Source: Candidatus Pelagisphaera phototrophica (GTDB lineage Bacteria; Verrucomicrobiota; Verrucomicrobiia; Opitutales; Opitutaceae). From it: a stretch of DNA of 64,000 bases. The DNA lies in the NCBI RefSeq assembly GCF_014529625.1, contig NZ_CP076039.1, forward strand, positions 124,001 to 188,000, in the 5' to 3' direction. Shown one piece after another: positions 41,170 to 49,297 of this stretch. Both the position numbers and the translations under genes were made by a program. The notes under the pieces were generated by a model, which had not been told where the DNA came from, made no database searches, and saw nothing but the letters and a program-made list of their open reading frames with translations. Every line of letters starts with the position of its first letter. Within the stretch, counting starts at the first letter, position 1.

Positions 41170-41470
41170 CCAGGCAGCCAACTATAAAGCCGACACAATA
41201 CGAGTCGGAAATAACCCCGCAAGCTGACTTCACTTCGGTAGACAACCCCAGACAAAATGGGGTTCATCCGAATTTTCGATATGCAACCTCGCCTTGGATG
41301 GTGCCCGGTTAAGGATTGGTTCGGATTACGCCGAATCGCTGCGCGACGACCTTCGATCGCCCCTCTCCGCTCGCGGGCTCTATCCGTCGAACCCGTCTCG
41401 GAGAACAGAGGTTCGAAAGTCCCGAGCCCCGCCGCGGCGCGGCATCCGTAGCACACAGAGCGAAGGATGG

Positions 41471-41545
41471 CGTCCCGTAAAGGATTCGAACCTCTGTTTC
41501 ATGGATGAAATCCATGCGTCCTAAGCCTGACTAGACGAACGGGAC
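41471..41545 (-). tRNA. tRNA-Glu (UUC), second divergent copy
   Basis: The 5' end is at 41545. Acceptor arm GTCCCGT/ACGGGAC pairs fully, discriminator base G at 41471, and CCA is encoded at 41468-41470. Anticodon stem CATGG/CCATG with a 7-base loop; anticodon TTC (template 41507-41509). The T-stem AGAGG/CCTTT holds one G-U pair and TTCGAAT loop. It differs from the next copy at several positions but appears foldable. Confidence 0.88.
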
Positions 41546-41686
41546 CGTGCTAAAGCGCCGCAGAACCTAAAATTTATCAAAGGGTATGCAAGAATTAATC
41601 GACCCAACCATAGGGGCTCTAATCCCCATGGCGTTGTACGCAAAAAGACCGCTTGCCTTTCAGCAGCGGTATCTTGGCTTAACTGG

Positions 41687-41761
41687 TACCCCGTAGGGGA
41701 TTCGAACCCCTGTCGCATGGATGAAAACCATGTGTCCTAGGCCTGGCTAGACGAACGGGGC
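41687..41761 (-). tRNA. tRNA-Glu (UUC)
   Basis: 5' end at 41761. Acceptor GCCCCGT/ACGGGGT (first pair G-U), discriminator A at 41687, CCA encoded at 41684-41686. Anticodon stem CATGG/CCATG, loop TTTTCAT with anticodon TTC (41723-41725). T-stem AGGGG/CCCCT with loop TTCGAAT. D-arm TCTAGCCAGGCCTAGGA fits tRNA-Glu. It lies 138 bases before the second copy on the same strand. Confidence 0.92.
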
Positions 41762-41954
41762 GTCAGCTAAGAGCCGGAGAACCTAGAAATACGGATCTCC
41801 CATGCAAGGCTTTTTTTCCAAATTTTAGGTCAAAATGAGAAAGAAAAATCTCCCGTATAATCCTATTTGTGTCCACCGAACTTGCCATGGCCCACTAAAT
41901 TCGCTTTACCCAATCATAGGCAACACTTTGCCAAATCGATCTAGCATAAACGAG

Positions 41955-43745
41955 ATGGGGATTTTCAACATATTCCGAAACGACGCTTCACTTACGATTG
42001 CGGACTGCCTCAACCGGTTGGTCACGAATGTGAGCAACTTCCCCGCTACCCTAAACGGGAGGTCCCAGGCAGGGGAAACCACCCCCCTCTGCCGCATCTC
42101 AGAGGAGAAAGGGAAATACTACATCACAGCCCTAGATCCAGACAGCCTACCCCTCCTAGACGGGGAACCCATCGACCAGAGGATGGAGATCAATCGTGAC
42201 CAGCTCTACCCTCTCACATTGAGAGGACATCTTCTGGCAATCGCCATAGGATCCAATGAACCTGATTTAGGAAAAGACTTTCGAGCTCATAAATGGAGTG
42301 TTGAAGCATCCAGTGGCGATCGACTTCGACTCCAGCTAAAATCTAGCGAGCTCAACCAAAGGAGCTTGCAGGAACGGTTTTCACCAACCAGCCGCTTTAT
42401 AGCGATCCCGGGAAGCCTCGATGCTCGATTTCCGCTGAAGGAACTTATCAATCTCTTGCCAAAGGAGCCCGCGGCCAAAACCACCTCCGAACCCTCGCCC
42501 TCCTACGGTACGGATGCTGCAGCGAGAGTGGGACTCAACAGCGACCCCACTTGCCCGATTTGCTGGAAGACCTTTCCCAAAGGCGATGTTATGAATATCG
42601 CTGCCCACGAGGACCTGATGGGCGATCCGGAACTCGGGCCTTATACGAAATTGAGGTTCGTCGCCAATCGATTCAATGAACTAGGCCAGGCTTTAGATGA
42701 AAAAGGCGTCGTGTGCATTGAATTGGCCTGCCCTCACTGCCGCGGTCGACTGCCAACCTCCTTTTTAAGCCAGAATCACCTGATACTGTCTGTAGTAGGA
42801 GCCCCCAGCAGCGGGAAGTCTTACTATCTTTCAACTTTGCTTCAGCTTCTACCTGAAGAATTGATCCGCACTCATGGATGCGTCCTGCAAGACGGAGACC
42901 CTAGCGGTAACGTTCGACTGAACGAAATGAAGAACCGGCTCTTTTCCGCAACCACGCCAGAGGACGCTTTCATTTCTAAGACGGACTTCGAAGGCCTCAT
43001 GTACGAGCAGCTTCCCCGAAACGGCAAGAAAGTCGCCCTGCCCCGGCCTTTCGTTTACCACTTGCGGCAAATCAAGAACGCCAAGCACCGGATAGCTCTA
43101 GTATTTTACGATAATGCAGGCGAGCACTTTAAACCCACCGTCAGTCTCGACGATTCCCCCGGAGCCCTTCACGTCGCAGCGTCCTCAGCACTGTTTTTCC
43201 TGTATGATCCGACCGCAAATCGAGAATTCCGTAAACGGCTACGCCGCAAGCGTGACCCTCAGCTAAGGTCTCAAGCGACAGACGAGCAGGACACCATCCT
43301 CGCGGAGATGGGAGTACGCGTCAAAAAACTGAAAGCCAAAGATAGTCATGAACTCGTGGATACGCCATTAGCAATTATGGTTGGGAAGTGTGACGTCTGG
43401 AAGTCAATCCTGCCCGAAAACGCGCTTTCGATTCCGGAAAACCGTCCCCTGACAAGCGATGAAATCGATCGGAATAGCGAGGTCGCGAGAAACCTCCTTT
43501 TGGACTTCTGCCCAACGATAGTTGCCAACGCAGAGTCTATCTCTACCTGTATCCGCTATTTTCCTATTTCACCCCTCGGTCATTCACCCAAGGAAATCAA
43601 GGAAGGCCCTCTATCCGGAAAGCTCGCGCCATCTCCCAGAAGGCTTCATCCCATTCTAGCGACTGCCCCCACGCTTTGGGCACTGTCCGAAACAGCTCCA
43701 GACATCCTTTCGCCCTCCTCTGATACCCCTTCCCCCTTTGGCTAA
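41955..43745 (+). CDS. FHA-like, zinc-ribbon GTPase (DO-GTPase/TRAFAC-like)
   Basis: 596 residues from the ATG at 41955 (MGIFNIFRND); a longer frame to 41835 adds 40 non-homologous residues. Residues about 40-105 have an FHA-like pattern (PLCRISEEKGKYYITALDPD, PLLDGEPIDQ, LTLRGHLLAIAIG). Two Cys pairs, CPIC (200-203) and CPHC (259-262), separated by an amphipathic helix, should bind zinc. The nucleotide-binding domain follows: Walker A GAPSSGKS (282-289), switch-like YDNAGEHF (386-393, DxxG), a hydrophobic SSALFFLYDPT strand and MVGKCD (476-480, base-recognition NKxD-like). This resembles GTPases of GAP1 conflict systems. It is two bases from the next gene, which encodes a GAP1-N protein. Family names are from memory, not searched. 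Confidence 0.75.
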   Translation: MGIFNIFRNDASLTIADCLNRLVTNVSNFPATLNGRSQAGETTPLCRISEEKGKYYITALDPDSLPLLDGEPIDQRMEINRDQLYPLTLRGHLLAIAIGSNEPDLGKDFRAHKWSVEASSGDRLRLQLKSSELNQRSLQERFSPTSRFIAIPGSLDARFPLKELINLLPKEPAAKTTSEPSPSYGTDAAARVGLNSDPTCPICWKTFPKGDVMNIAAHEDLMGDPELGPYTKLRFVANRFNELGQALDEKGVVCIELACPHCRGRLPTSFLSQNHLILSVVGAPSSGKSYYLSTLLQLLPEELIRTHGCVLQDGDPSGNVRLNEMKNRLFSATTPEDAFISKTDFEGLMYEQLPRNGKKVALPRPFVYHLRQIKNAKHRIALVFYDNAGEHFKPTVSLDDSPGALHVAASSALFFLYDPTANREFRKRLRRKRDPQLRSQATDEQDTILAEMGVRVKKLKAKDSHELVDTPLAIMVGKCDVWKSILPENALSIPENRPLTSDEIDRNSEVARNLLLDFCPTIVANAESISTCIRYFPISPLGHSPKEIKEGPLSGKLAPSPRRLHPILATAPTLWALSETAPDILSPSSDTPSPFG

Positions 43746-43747
43746 CC

Positions 43748-45829
43748 GTGTCACTGCAATACATACATACCAGCGCCCGGCGAGGCTTGGAGCCCGGAAA
43801 GTCCGGCTTTTGTTGCGTCGCCCGCGACCGTGACCTGCCGGCTGACCTAGAGAAGGAACTGGAAAAGCTAAGTCGGTACGAACACATCCCTGGTAAATCG
43901 AGCCCAGTGATTCTGCGGCACCTGGCCCTATCCAGCCGCACTGGCAATTACCATATCCTTACCTGCCTGCGCGATTCTGGCACCGACTATTCCAAACGCA
44001 ACAATCACATCGCCCACCATCTTGCCTTCACCGAAGACGAGATACCGGTCCTCCCGGATCCCGCTACGATTCTTTTGTTTTGGAACGGGTGGAAGGACTC
44101 TTGGATCGAACCTCCCAGAATACTTCAGGAACGAGACCAATTTCGGATAGGTGATCTGGATATTTCTACAGAAGTCACACCGATAGATTTCGACTCACCC
44201 ATCGAAACGGGCAATCCACGGGATGCTGCTTTCAGTTTCGAAGCGGGTGAAGAACACGACCTCGCCCATCATTTTCGCAATGAACTTCTCACCCTTCCTG
44301 CGAGCCAGCGCTGGGATGTTCCCTTCACAAACTTCATTCTGACATCCGATCAGCCGACCCAGTTTTTGTGGCGAGGAAACTGGAAAGACCGGCCCCTTCC
44401 TTTCGAGTTCGAAGGATTAGCAGATAAAGTAAGCCCCTTCGAGTCGCCCCACGTTTTTGAGGAGCAAGTGCCCGAGGAACCAGAGGATGTTTCACACCGT
44501 ATTACTAAAACAGCCCCCAAAGTCGAAATCCCAGACGAACTCACGCGAGCGGATCGCAAACGTCCAAAGCGGAAATGGACCCGTCGCCGACTCTCTAATA
44601 CATTGAACCTAACCTTGGCATGCCTAGCGATCCTTTGCTGCGGAACAATCGCCTACCTCCTCCTTGATTTCAGATCACCGCCGGAACCCGAGGAGCCGCA
44701 ATCACCTCAGGAAGCGCCTACCTCTGGTCCAAGTGATCCCAATATGGGAACGGACAAATCTTTAGATCCCCGTCAATCATGGGCATCACTCATTGATTCG
44801 GACCGTCTCTATAAAAATCTAGAGCTCGGTCTGGGTGTCGCAGAAGCATTGTCTTCACTCGGGGAACCTAAGCCACTCCAGATCGCTAAGGCTCTATCAG
44901 CCGTCAGAGACGCAGTTGAGAATCAATCGTCAGATTCAATCGCGATTGTACCTGTTCCAAGCTCGCTTGTTCAGAGCGATACCAGCCAGTGGTTCCTGGA
45001 ACCCGACTTCGCTTCGGCAATAAAATCACTAGACGTCTTACTTATTCCCGAATCAATAGTCCCATTTTTTCAGGAGCCTCTCGCCAGCAACCCAATCTTC
45101 GGACCGCTTCGTGAGCACGGTCCATTCGACCGGTTTATTCCAGAGGACACTATTCTCAGTATAAAAGCCGTTCGTCGGGCCGCTAGAGACCGCCTCGTGC
45201 AAAACGGTATCGATGCCATTACGGCTGCAGAGGAATACAGGAAACAATGGCAGTCCCTATCAGAGGATGATATTCACCATAGCATCCAAACTTTGGAGAC
45301 AGCTTTCGAATTAAACGCTGACGAACGCTATTTAGCTCAAGATAGCAAAGGCCTACTCATCTCTCCCACACAAGTAGAGATCTCCAACCATATGAGAACC
45401 CTGTATGAACGATTCATACTACGACGGGTTTCGTCATTCATTACATCGCCAGAATTCCGTGATACCCTAAACACCGCCAACCAGGAGCACAACACAGCGA
45501 TCGAGCAAGCCCGATCAATTTACGAGGTCTTTGCCACGGCAAGGGCGCTTTCCGAACCGATGGCAACCAAACTGGAGAATATTCGCGATCAATGGCGGGA
45601 AACATTTATAAGAGACGATTTGATGGAGGAGACCATGATCAATTTTAACCTCGAGCGCATAGCTAACAGAAAGCACAACCTGTCCACCCTACAGTCTCAG
45701 TTTTCCCAAAATACATTGGCTGATCTGGACTCCGCCAACCAGATCCTAGACTCCATTGAAAAAGCGGAACAGTCTATTCAGGCTATCGATTCGGATTCCG
45801 GATGGGCTTTGCTTGTGGGAAATCCGTGA
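43748..45829 (+). CDS. GAP1-N-like, single-pass membrane protein
   Basis: 693 residues starting at GTG 43748, two bases after the GTPase gene. Residues 1-230 match the GTPase-associated protein 1 N-terminal pattern: LQYIHTSARRGLEPGKSGFCCVA, then LRHLALSSRTGNYHILTCLRDSGTDYSKRNNHIAHHLAF, where the 'G.D.sgR.gN...H.l' core is the family signature. A basic region (KRPKRKWTRRRL) leads into one TM helix (about 285-306). A Pro/Glu/Ser linker and a mostly helical, polar domain (about 345-690) follow, presumably across the membrane. It probably docks the GTPase at the membrane. The C-terminal part has no family I recognise. Confidence 0.75.
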   Translation: MSLQYIHTSARRGLEPGKSGFCCVARDRDLPADLEKELEKLSRYEHIPGKSSPVILRHLALSSRTGNYHILTCLRDSGTDYSKRNNHIAHHLAFTEDEIPVLPDPATILLFWNGWKDSWIEPPRILQERDQFRIGDLDISTEVTPIDFDSPIETGNPRDAAFSFEAGEEHDLAHHFRNELLTLPASQRWDVPFTNFILTSDQPTQFLWRGNWKDRPLPFEFEGLADKVSPFESPHVFEEQVPEEPEDVSHRITKTAPKVEIPDELTRADRKRPKRKWTRRRLSNTLNLTLACLAILCCGTIAYLLLDFRSPPEPEEPQSPQEAPTSGPSDPNMGTDKSLDPRQSWASLIDSDRLYKNLELGLGVAEALSSLGEPKPLQIAKALSAVRDAVENQSSDSIAIVPVPSSLVQSDTSQWFLEPDFASAIKSLDVLLIPESIVPFFQEPLASNPIFGPLREHGPFDRFIPEDTILSIKAVRRAARDRLVQNGIDAITAAEEYRKQWQSLSEDDIHHSIQTLETAFELNADERYLAQDSKGLLISPTQVEISNHMRTLYERFILRRVSSFITSPEFRDTLNTANQEHNTAIEQARSIYEVFATARALSEPMATKLENIRDQWRETFIRDDLMEETMINFNLERIANRKHNLSTLQSQFSQNTLADLDSANQILDSIEKAEQSIQAIDSDSGWALLVGNP

Positions 45830-45916
45830 ATTCACCCATAAAAGTTTGCGCGAGGAATGGATTGTCTTCCTAAATCAAACTAGGCAGCTTTTTTCTCAAA
45901 CATTTGTTTTACACGT

Positions 45917-48907
45917 ATGCGGCCCGACGCTTCCAGACTTGTATATCGAATAAAGACCGCCCTAAAGGGCGAGTCCAACGGCTTGGAAACAGCCAACTTG
46001 GCATGGCAATATGCGAAGGAAGTCGACCTCAGCCTCGCCATCCTGAAGCAGTGTCTCGAAACAGAAAGCGACCTTGAGGCCTACGTCGCTTCCTATTCTA
46101 ACCCCAGCGTGCTGGATACCCTCAATTCCCTGGATTTTGGTGGGGCAAAGGAATGGAGTGAGTGCTGCGAGAAATTTAGTTGGAGGAAAGCGGATGAAAT
46201 TGACCCAGCACAGTTGAAGAAACTGCAAGGAAGATTCTCACAAATCGCAGATCCAAAAACCTGGCTGCAGGGTGAATTCCGGGCCAAAGTTAGAGCGAAA
46301 AAACCTCTCGAAGCCTACCAAATCGCAAGCCTCATATCCGAGAAGTTTGAAGCCGATGCCGATCTTGCAAGTGAGTTGGAGCGGCTCAAGTCCCAGGTCA
46401 TCGATCAGGCAGAGTCTGAGCTCTCAAGCGCGTTGCAGGAACGCATGCCCGCCGAAGCGCCCGAGGCGATCGTCGCCCGATACCGCTCATACGGCATAGA
46501 GCTCCCAGACAAGGAAGGTCCCATCAAAACCGTCCTTTTATCCATGGCGGAAAACGCTGTTCGAGATTCTACGGCCGCTGTTGAATCCCTCATCGAACAG
46601 GCCAAGCCCTCCAATACGGTTGAAGAGAAAAGGGCTCTTGAGAAGGCCTATTTTAAATGCGACTACCAGCTTACCTTGACGGACACACGATCAAAAATCG
46701 ATGCCAAGCTACGTGACGCCTACTCGACTGTTGTAACAGAGATCTCCCATCACAGAGCCGGTAATGAATCCAATCTTTTAATACAAAACGCGATCGATGA
46801 CTTAAGAAAGGTTCTACAAGGGCTGTCGATAAGCTTTGGACGCAAGAAGGCGACGGTCCATGATGCTAGAGAGCGTCTCAAATCATTCGAAGCTCAGGCC
46901 AAGCGGATGGGAAGGCGGATTCCGGCTGCAATCCAGGAAGATATCAAAAAAGCTCTTTCCGAAGCCACCCGTAAACGGGCTCCCAAATACGCCATTCTGG
47001 CATCGGGCGCGCTTGTCATTCTCCTTATACTCGGCTGGATCGCAAATAGTCAGGTAAAGAATAACCAATATTCGAAAACGCTCCAAATCGCTACCGCAGC
47101 ACTCAATCAAGCCGCCGCCAACCAAGATATCGAACAGGCGGAAAAAGCTCTTCTAGAGCGAAATGAGCTTGTAGCCAACGCTCCTTCTGGCCATGCTATC
47201 AAACAAGCTGCGGGATCCCTGCAGCGCTGGATCACCGACCAGAAAAGCCTCCAAAAGGAATACACGGAGATCGGAGATCGCCTAGACTCCATTCGAGGCT
47301 CTGAAAATGCAGATCCCAATGCTCCTGAAATCGATGCCCTTCTAAGCAAGGCAATGACGACGCTTGCCGCAATAGACGTCGAATTGGAAAACGATTCCGA
47401 AGCGCGAATCGCCCGATTTGAAAGTTGGCGTAAAGACCAGATTTCCGAGCAACTGAACGATCGAAAACAAGTATTGCTCGGCTACGTCCGAGAAGCCCAG
47501 AACAACCTCGAACAAGCAGCGGCAGCCTCAAACGACACTGAGTTCGAAACAAGCTCCAGAGCCATCGTTGAGTCGATCGCAAGTGCCCGACTACATATAT
47601 CCCAATTCCCTGATTCGGATCAGAACTCACTTCAGCAGCGTAGTATCGGGCGGATTGAAGAATCGCTTAAAAGCATACAGGGAAAGCGAGATACCATGCT
47701 CGCTGCCCAAAAATCAATCAAAGGGGCCGACGATCTGGTAGGCTATCTCAAATCGCTGGAAGCCATATACAATTTTGAGACCCTCCCTACAGACGGCAAA
47801 CGGAACATTGGCCGGATATTGAAATTGGAGAATCAATACAAATCCTTGATGCAGAATTTGATCATGCCGGGCAACCCTAAAGGGTGGGAAGCATTAAACG
47901 CTGCGAGCGATTTTGCGGCAGAAAAACAGATACTCGATGAGGCTGAAACAGCGTTTGTAGAGCGAATGATCAACAATCCCTTGTTCCCTACGATTTACGA
48001 ATCGAAGGTTAAATACTTCGAAGGCGCTCCTGTAGCTAAAAACGAGTACTCCGTATTCCTGGCGGATCCCATTCAAAAAGGGGATAAGGCCGAACTGAAA
48101 ACAGGAATCAATTTTAGTTTTAAAGTACGGGGATTCGACGAGAACGGGGATGCCGAAGAGGAAGCTTTGGAGATGAATTTTCTTAGCCATCCTGACGGTA
48201 CATTCTGGGGTTTCTTCTACGAACCATCCGAAATGTCGAAAGAGTCGATCTATTACCAGGAATCTCTCCGCGTATCCTTCATGAAGATACTTGCGGGCGC
48301 TCCTCGTTTTTTCCCGCTCCAACTGATCGACGAGCTAACCTCCAAGAGAACCTTATCTCCGGCCTTTCGCGCCTACTGGCAGCAGCAGCTTATTGAATTT
48401 ATGGGAATGAATCCCTGGAAGTGGGGTATGTCGCTTTCCCCTGAATTACAGAATCAAATTGAGTCTTTTGATAAGCTTGATCCAGATGGAATCGACCAAC
48501 AGCAATGGCTATCGACCGTAGAGCAAATATCTCCTTCTGTGCTGCTCACCGAACACTTTCGGATCGCGAGCAAGACGAAAGTGGCAGATGAGGCTAAGGC
48601 ATTTGTCGAATTCTATTCTTACGCAAAAGCGGGGGAAATGAAACTTATAGGGCAGGCCAATGAATCCGGAGAAATCGAATACGAACATCCCCGACTCGAT
48701 AGCGAGAAAGTCTGGATCGTCAATGGGCTAACCGGTAGGATCGAACGCTTTGAGGCAGAGACAAACATCGCCCCCTACGCTCCCGTGGTCGCGTACCGCT
48801 TTGAGGACCAACCCGCATCTCGAGTAATCCAAAAGACAGAAATGCGTACCGGTATCGATTTGAGCTCAAACCGATACTCACAAAAACTCCCTCCTCTATT
48901 TAAATAG
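45917..48907 (+). CDS. large membrane coiled-coil protein, unrecognised
   Basis: 996 residues, ATG at 45917, 87 bases after the GAP1-N gene. I recognise no domain. Residues 1-350 are helical and charged, with repeated short helices. One TM helix lies at about 358-376 (AILASGALVILLILGWIA) after a basic stretch (RKRAPK). Residues about 380-640 are a long Gln/Ala/Glu-rich coiled coil. From about 640 a globular mixed domain follows (YESKVKYFEGAPVAKNEYSV, FKVRGFDENGDAEEEA, DGTFWGFFYEPSEM, YEHPRLDSEKVWIVNGLTG). The soluble-TM-soluble layout parallels its neighbour and the two are likely partners. C-terminal similarity to known secretion proteins (TssM-like layout) is possible but not supported by motifs. 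Confidence 0.7.
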   Translation: MRPDASRLVYRIKTALKGESNGLETANLAWQYAKEVDLSLAILKQCLETESDLEAYVASYSNPSVLDTLNSLDFGGAKEWSECCEKFSWRKADEIDPAQLKKLQGRFSQIADPKTWLQGEFRAKVRAKKPLEAYQIASLISEKFEADADLASELERLKSQVIDQAESELSSALQERMPAEAPEAIVARYRSYGIELPDKEGPIKTVLLSMAENAVRDSTAAVESLIEQAKPSNTVEEKRALEKAYFKCDYQLTLTDTRSKIDAKLRDAYSTVVTEISHHRAGNESNLLIQNAIDDLRKVLQGLSISFGRKKATVHDARERLKSFEAQAKRMGRRIPAAIQEDIKKALSEATRKRAPKYAILASGALVILLILGWIANSQVKNNQYSKTLQIATAALNQAAANQDIEQAEKALLERNELVANAPSGHAIKQAAGSLQRWITDQKSLQKEYTEIGDRLDSIRGSENADPNAPEIDALLSKAMTTLAAIDVELENDSEARIARFESWRKDQISEQLNDRKQVLLGYVREAQNNLEQAAAASNDTEFETSSRAIVESIASARLHISQFPDSDQNSLQQRSIGRIEESLKSIQGKRDTMLAAQKSIKGADDLVGYLKSLEAIYNFETLPTDGKRNIGRILKLENQYKSLMQNLIMPGNPKGWEALNAASDFAAEKQILDEAETAFVERMINNPLFPTIYESKVKYFEGAPVAKNEYSVFLADPIQKGDKAELKTGINFSFKVRGFDENGDAEEEALEMNFLSHPDGTFWGFFYEPSEMSKESIYYQESLRVSFMKILAGAPRFFPLQLIDELTSKRTLSPAFRAYWQQQLIEFMGMNPWKWGMSLSPELQNQIESFDKLDPDGIDQQQWLSTVEQISPSVLLTEHFRIASKTKVADEAKAFVEFYSYAKAGEMKLIGQANESGEIEYEHPRLDSEKVWIVNGLTGRIERFEAETNIAPYAPVVAYRFEDQPASRVIQKTEMRTGIDLSSNRYSQKLPPLFK

Positions 48908-49159: not shown

Positions 49160-49297
49160 ATGAGACCGACATACAGACCACACCGCTTGAAACGAGTTCG
49201 CAAGATAGGCTTCCGTGCTAGAATGGGAACCCGAGGCGGCCGTGCCCTCATCAATGCCCGTAGACGCAAGGGTCGCAAACGGCTCGTGAACGTGTAG
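49160..49297 (+). CDS. rpmH: 50S ribosomal protein L34
   Basis: A 45-residue protein starting at ATG 49160. The sequence is nearly all basic and typical: [20 protein letters not shown], then [19 protein letters not shown] and a short end KRLVNV. The usual motif 'tkRtyqPs..kR.r.hGFr.RM.t..Gr.vl..RR.KGR..L' is present with small changes. L34 is a large-subunit protein. It is followed 35 bases later by rnpA in the classic rpmH-rnpA-yidC order. No dnaA is seen upstream; the GTPase cluster takes that place. Confidence 0.95.

Follow-up and report, generated by a model that had tools for sequence, protein, structure and literature searches.

A DO-GTPase/GAP1-N2 pair with a conserved third component, a membrane protein, in Verrucomicrobiota, and its linkage to motor-like genes in many relatives

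DO-GTPases, which are of the TRAFAC type, and their GAP1 partners were defined as a pair, split into N1 and N2 types and predicted to function in biological conflicts by Kaur et al. 2020 (PMC7159879). According to the text of that paper, N2-type GTPases usually have two N-terminal zinc ribbons, the GAP1 protein has GAP1-M and GAP1-C as further domains, and an FNIII-repeat protein is described for N2-type systems outside the two core components. The same text notes a membrane tendency of the class, as well as planctomycete GYF proteins with trypsin or transmembrane (TM) regions, and in its main part (figures and supplements apart) it mentions no MotA, ExbB, TolQ, 'proton channel', longin or TagF. 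DO-GTPases are also predicted, in the text of PMC11237479, to act in membrane-related stress; besides that paper, searches for later literature gave unrelated uses of 'double GTPase'. In the literature searched we found neither experimental work on a DO-GTPase/GAP1 system nor any link of these systems to longin/TagF folds or to a motor.

A different GTPase module is known from Myxococcus. As described in the text of PMC6785124, MglB, the GAP of the MglA/MglB module, has the Roadblock/LC7 fold, and the AglR/AglQ/AglS motor consists of one MotA/TolQ and two MotB/TolR homologues (text of PMC4488436).

The locus and its three proteins

The locus analysed here lies in the window, by which we mean the whole stretch of 64,000 nucleotides under analysis. 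It consists of three plus-strand ORFs in series, separated by intergenic gaps of 2 and 87 bases:

41955-43745, plus strand: p1, a DO-GTPase2-family GTPase of 596 residues (PF19993, E 2.3e-7, above cut-off)
43748-45829, plus strand: p2, a GAP1-N2 protein of 693 residues with one TM helix (PF20013, E 8.5e-21, above cut-off)
45917-48907, plus strand: p3, a bitopic protein of 996 residues without a family, the third conserved component

The next gene 3' of p3 is rpmH, on the plus strand at 49160-49285 of the window (173160-173285 of the contig). An alternative start for p1 lies upstream, at 41835; most aligned homologues begin at the MG.F residue of the 41955 start. Two tRNA-Glu genes with an identical anticodon lie just upstream of p1 on the minus strand (41468-41545 and 41684-41761). 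Promoter and terminator scans gave sites no more numerous than in shuffles.

A preliminary description of this DNA had read the locus as three plus-strand genes, with these same gaps, directly before rpmH. It took them to encode a GTPase-like protein with zinc cysteines, a GAP1-N-like protein with one TM helix and a 996-residue protein with one TM helix and no known family, the last two sharing a bitopic layout. The ORFs, the position of rpmH, the families and the layout were all borne out by the profile searches, alignments and hydropathy analysis given here. Its proposal of an undescribed system is not right, because the GTPase/GAP1-N2 pair is already described (PMC7159879, text): judged by its sequence, the p1-p2 pair has the core of a DO-GTPase/GAP1-N2 system.

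PF19993 matched all 16 of the aligned p1 homologues, and no GTPase family other than DO-GTPase2 scored above the Pfam cut-off. The N-terminal part of p1, of about 190 residues, has no family. The remainder contains the following:

42552-42740, plus strand: zinc-ribbon region, from CPxC (residues 200-203) to CPHC (259-262), cysteines invariant in 16 homologues
42798-42821, plus strand: G1 / Walker A motif GAPSSGKS (282-289), with G282, A283, P284, G287, K288 and S289 invariant in 16 homologues
43110-43124, plus strand: G3 / Walker B motif DNAGE (386-390), invariant in 16 homologues, with the glutamate noted for DO-GTPases in the text of PMC7159879
43383-43394, plus strand: G4-like motif GKCD (477-480), with G477, K478 and D480 invariant in 16 homologues

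C200, C203, C259 and C262 make up a single invariant cysteine set in the 16-homologue alignment. A second zinc ribbon was not seen in p1, and Zn_Ribbon_TF matched two of the 16 homologues, weakly. An FHA-like reading of the N-terminal domain was dropped, as Pfam gave no FHA match among the 16 members; in a few divergent p1 proteins this part gave a GYF-like match (best E 4e-5).

p2 has one strong hydrophobic segment, at residue 288, and its features are as follows:

43748-44437, plus strand: predicted cytosolic part of p2 (residues 1-230), longin/TagF-like in the predicted model, with borderline Foldseek and VIA scores
43997-43999, plus strand: Arg84, which may serve in catalysis or contact and is invariant across an alignment of 44 p2 proteins
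44609-44665, plus strand: TM helix (288-306), preceded by a basic stretch, hydropathy 2.39

The positive-inside bias favours an N-in/C-out orientation in 83 of the 107 p2 homologues with a TM segment, and one further homologue has no hydrophobic segment above threshold. The predicted model of p2, built from 44 sequences, has a mean pLDDT of 86.4. Its residues 1-230 were matched best in Foldseek by the Lst4 longin domain (E 0.11, probability 0.97). The top nine rows of VIA, with Z from 7.1 to 5.1 and thus under the tool's own safe level, comprised TagF/PA0076, a Roadblock-Longin protein, a DENND10-containing complex, Lst4 and three folliculin-FNIP2 complexes; in the complexes we take the matched chains to be the proteins named. 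The longin-type families among these matches (Lst4, DENN, folliculin-FNIP and roadblock, with TagF standing apart) bind or regulate small GTPases, a role that fits the gene order p1 to p2. Because the structural scores lie below the safe level, we treat the resemblance of the cytosolic part of p2 to longin/TagF folds, often GTPase regulators, as a supported guess. In Pfam at E up to 1, p2 had no TagF match and GAP1-N2 was the only family found, so that GAP1-M and GAP1-C were not detected (Pfam may lack models for them).

p3 likewise has one strong hydrophobic segment, at residue 358, and divides in the predicted model into four parts:

45917-46972, plus strand: helical cytosolic part of p3 (residues 1-352), predicted model
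46988-47044, plus strand: TM segment (358-376), hydropathy 2.35, pLDDT under 50 around it
47162-47902, plus strand: long helical part (416-662), presumably periplasmic, predicted model
47984-48904, plus strand: C-terminal alpha/beta region (690-996), predicted model with pLDDT mostly above 85, no fold identified

The bias again favours N-in/C-out, in 92 of the 98 p3 homologues with a TM segment; seven further homologues have no hydrophobic segment above threshold. With the family cut-off for Pfam and limits of E 1 for NCBIfam and PADLOC and E 0.01 for PHROGs, p3 matched no family, and its distant homologues are as little as 13-16% identical. The predicted model (51 sequences) has a mean pLDDT of 83.7 and is mostly helical, with a poorly predicted TM region. 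We claim no fold for p3, because its Foldseek and VIA matches were generic helical repeats and bundles (best Foldseek E 0.02; best VIA Z 9.9 at 39.6 Å). Profile searches of the PDB gave weak matches only for all three proteins (best E 0.2 for p1, 0.049 for p2 and 0.028 for p3).

Occurrence and linkage of the trio

The genome that contains the window has one GAP1-N2 match and one DO-GTPase2 match. Of 95 relatives, 23 have a GAP1-N2 match (above cut-off in 22 of them), 24 a match to the p1 profile and 23 one to the p3 profile. The 22 genomes above the GAP1-N2 cut-off all have p1, and 19 of them have p3. The three without p3 are G062, G091 and G094; in the last of these a run of N occupies the stretch behind GAP1-N2. 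An apparent GAP1 frame of 13,583 residues in that genome is likewise a run of N and was discarded. p1 is set apart from p2-p3 in two genomes (G063 and G089).

We examined linkage more widely in two samples, which may share species. The named loci are the best 80 of 359 relatives found by a p1 scan, and include Pelagicoccus, Prosthecobacter, Brevifollis and many MAGs of Opitutales and Verrucomicrobiota; the nearest is an uncultured Opitutaceae MAG, whose p1 is 97% identical. The phylum survey was drawn by GAP1-N2 alone, which occurred in 49 of 288 genomes at 56 places, 40 of these loci being examined. Profiles for p1, p2 and p3 were built from relatives, that of p3 being trained on the named set.

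Where a locus had a p2 profile match and at least 1 kb following, p2 was accompanied by p3 at 60 of 61 loci in the named set and at 36 of 37 in the survey, the misses being L084 and L176. These counts were made without ORF selection, a step that discards overlapping ORFs (one gene was lost in L056 and L141) and after which they become 59 of 60 and 35 of 36. Two more survey loci, L169 and L178, have a Pfam GAP1-N2 match, no p2-profile match and no p3, and look like another subtype; if they are counted, p3 is present in 36 of the 39 survey loci with room for it. The p3 profile itself gave 120 matches among 10738 ORFs, all but one at E 3.5e-13 or better. p3 is near-constant beside p2, and therefore looks like the third core component of the Verrucomicrobiota form of the system. 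The preliminary description had supposed that the three genes would co-occur, and had suggested profile searches and a neighbourhood analysis across Verrucomicrobiota; these returned the GTPase and GAP1-N matches and a conserved linkage.

Several loci depart from the common arrangement. A gene upstream in L178 reads as Hsp70-like. In four Puniceicoccales MAGs (L072, L093, L095 and L101) p1-like genes had neither p2 nor p3 detected alongside, L095 ending soon after p1; these may be orphan DO-GTPases or contig effects. Genes of 441-661 residues, with no Pfam match, are inserted between p2 and p3 in five loci (L091:14600-16585, L140:5978-7588, L144:7069-8670, L149:5936-7261 and L156:6229-7695). 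Extra p3 paralogues without neighbouring p1 or p2 occur at L180:8319-11450, L181:3878-6832 and L182:7154-9928, in G022 and G018. They are the only unlinked full-length p3 genes among the 95 relatives, and both genomes also carry the trio.

Within the genus, GAP1-N2 is lacking in G006 and G009, where what is left of p3 is its TM and periplasmic half; G009 also has broken pieces of p1. The trio is therefore dispensable, its cytosolic parts being lost together. The remaining p3 half is open in both genomes (L183:8876-10879 in G006, whose frame starts with the first p1 residues, and L184:6334-8358 in G009), and may reflect either recent decay or a retained function. In G008, a single-contig genome, p1 is split into three frames and p2 into two, while p3 is open (L031:6742-10794; L110 is the same place); the split frames may be pseudogenes or sequencing errors.

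In the clade of the window the trio stands alone, with rpmH/rnpA/yidC next downstream; some relatives instead have purC there, and rnpA behind it. Its position beside rnpA/yidC is stable in those genus members whose contigs reach that far. A gene of 306-312 residues between p3 and rnpA in several relatives was considered as a fourth component and set aside, since it reads as a probable purC-type housekeeping enzyme.

Linked motor-like and PilM-like genes

A gene resembling MotA, TolQ or ExbB accompanies the trio at 21 of the 80 named and 20 of the 40 survey loci, that is, at 41 of 120; adding two loci of our first set gives 43 motor-linked loci of 142. Among strains with an intact trio, Brevifollis gellanilyticus (L080) has the motor genes, whereas none was seen linked in Pelagicoccus sp. 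SDUM812002 (L060). The Pfam family MotA_ExbB scored above cut-off in both examples scanned (E 1.9e-9 and 3.7e-8). The motor genes may lie downstream of the trio, upstream (L160), rearranged (L170) or convergent (L114), and this variable placement argues for a functional link. Of the 43 motor-linked loci, 34 have at least two single-TM TolR-like genes and four have one; in five none was found, and some contigs end there. The single-TM proteins match no Pfam family above cut-off, and so we call them TolR-like from their size, the position of the TM segment and their place in the locus. An Asp close to that segment, present in 70 of 72 TolR-like proteins, was dropped as evidence, since 1030 of 1440 random 22-mers of the same proteins also had one.

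At seven other survey loci the trio is accompanied by a PilM-like gene (PF11104, E 7.5e-11 in L150). In L150:13258-16678 and L163:13081-16480 two small single-TM genes come after it, which we read as resembling PilO/GspM and PilP/GspC. Family searches did not confirm this reading: T2SSM scored E 0.021, below cut-off, and there was no other such match. A GYF-type or other small membrane protein often lies between p3 and the motor, and single examples of fourth genes near the trio have RDD, DUF4190, DUF805 or trypsin domains. Of the 57 loci that allow a judgement on linkage, 48 have a linked motor-type or PilM-like gene. The other nine (seven named, two survey) have p3 and at least 5 kb downstream with neither module, and a further 40 loci with p3 contain too little sequence for such a judgement.

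At the window's locus there is no motor gene. The genome has 14 MotA_ExbB matches, only one of which resembles a linked motor gene at E 1e-3 (29% identity, in a different operon). The linked-motor profile scored this MotA at E 5.6e-17, against E 7.1e-138 for the linked gene of G086. It belongs to another subfamily and operon, and no motor is assignable to the window's trio.

Elsewhere in this genome (C1, near 1.52 Mb) an operon at L129:6917-11469 encodes a MotA-like protein, one like the actin/Hsp70 fold and two TM-vWA-like proteins that share an N-terminal TM motif, the names other than MotA being our reading of the sequence. It is possibly another envelope complex driven by proton-motive force. 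One of its proteins occurs in 36 of the 95 relatives. As the missing motor the operon remains a lead only: the protein is present in 11 of the 12 GAP1-N2 genomes of the family, but 17 of the family's 49 other genomes have it too, and none of the 10 GAP1-N2 genomes outside the family does.

Possible roles and comparison with known systems

From the families, linkage, conservation and topology bias given above, we infer how the trio might work. We propose, at about even chances of being right, that it is a DO-GTPase/GAP1-N2 switch in the inner membrane together with p3, coupled in many relatives to a proton-channel-type module. p1 would cycle between GTP and GDP in the cytosol, and the longin/TagF-like part of p2 would bind it there, in the role of a regulator or a sensor. 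Both p2 and p3, which would cross the membrane once in N-in/C-out orientation and perhaps form a complex, would pass the nucleotide state to their large periplasmic domains. Many relatives would couple this output to a TolQ/MotA-like protein, in most cases joined by two TolR-like proteins, and one group would couple it to a PilM-like protein. Such coupling makes it most likely that the trio would control an envelope-spanning machine, serving envelope maintenance, secretion, adhesion or surface interaction, and would not release a toxin. The window would then hold the minimal three-gene form, with no linked motor.

Several observations count against this proposal. The window's genome has no motor of the linked type, and nine p3 loci have neither module. 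p3 has no known fold, some relatives have no p3, and GAP1-M and GAP1-C were not detected. In addition, the structural scores of p2 are below the safe level and the TolR-like call has no Pfam match above cut-off.

Alternatively, the trio could be an immunity (conflict) system that senses an invader, has its threshold set by the GTPase and perturbs the membrane through an effector, either p3 or the periplasmic part of p2. We consider this rather doubtful. It is what the text of PMC7159879 predicts for the whole class, with its membrane tendency, and it would suit the patchy presence of GAP1-N2 (23 of 95 relatives, 49 of 288 genomes of the phylum), the loss of the trio in G006 and G009, and fourth genes that vary and in one case have a trypsin domain. 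However, PADLOC matched none of the three proteins at E up to 1, p1 had no tblastn match in phage and plasmid collections, and Pfam and NCBIfam gave no effector-type domain in p2 or p3. Moreover, p3 behaves as a constant partner and not as an effector that is swapped between loci, and the place beside rnpA/yidC is kept within the genus where contigs allow. The immunity role raised in the preliminary description as a possibility thus gains no direct support from these searches or from the stable position, which are weak counter-arguments and no refutation.

The trio might instead sense envelope stress with no motor involved: p2 and p3 would monitor the envelope through their periplasmic domains and the GTPase would relay the signal inwards. 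We think this unlikely. In its favour, no motor is linked in the clade of the window or at nine other judged loci, and DO-GTPases are predicted to act in membrane-related stress (PMC11237479, text); against it, 48 of the 57 judged loci do have a linked gene of the motor or PilM-like type. That p3 is a generic helical neighbour, appearing as a third component through an artefact of profile searches with helical proteins, is very improbable, for although p3 is mostly helical in the predicted model and its distant homologues are only 13-16% identical, the 120 matches among 10738 ORFs are nearly all strong (all but one at E 3.5e-13 or better) and a length near 1000 residues, a mid-protein TM segment and the place after p2 are all kept.

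The reading of the trio as a membrane switch can be extended, tentatively, to a widespread and unrecognised class of GTP-switched trans-envelope machines in Verrucomicrobiota. In these a DO-GTPase, a membrane-bound longin-type regulator and p3 might steer a proton-driven TolQ/TolR/TolR motor or a PilM-type platform, in parallel with Mgl/Agl of Myxococcus and with different parts; the minimal form would borrow an unlinked motor or need none. If true, this would be a second bacterial way, built from different parts, to steer an envelope motor by a GTPase. p3, the regulator-like fold and the proton-channel-type partner narrow the broad conflict-system prediction of 2020 to specific questions: whether p1 is regulated by p2, whether p2 joins p3 in a single membrane-spanning complex, and whether the proton-motive force is involved.

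Three known systems bear comparison with the trio. TagF of type VI secretion is the best VIA match of the cytosolic part of p2 (9t0n, Z 7.1, 192 residues, 5.3 Å), but p2 has no TagF sequence match and has in addition a TM helix and a large C-terminal part. Mgl/Agl of Myxococcus xanthus also pairs a GTPase with a dedicated regulator and, as in relatives of the window only, one MotA/TolQ-like with two TolR-like proteins. In contrast, the trio has a DO-GTPase2 rather than the Ras-like MglA, a membrane-bound putative regulator, a p3 without counterpart and, in the window, no linked motor. We regard Mgl/Agl as a parallel by analogy, in how such a system might work, and claim no membership for the trio.

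The closest likeness is to the DO-GTPase/GAP1-N2 systems themselves, which share with the trio a zinc-ribbon DO-GTPase, the Walker B glutamate, GAP1-N2 directly downstream and a membrane tendency; relatives of the window also share the GYF-type neighbours. They differ in that GAP1-M and GAP1-C were not detected by Pfam in p2, and in that the conserved p3 stands where the paper has an FNIII-repeat protein; no FNIII match was found in the window's p3, in two further p3 homologues or in the other neighbour proteins scanned. The TolQ/TolR-like or PilM-like linked genes are also absent from the text of PMC7159879. Relative to that text, the constant presence of p3 beside p2 and the link to motor-like genes are new.
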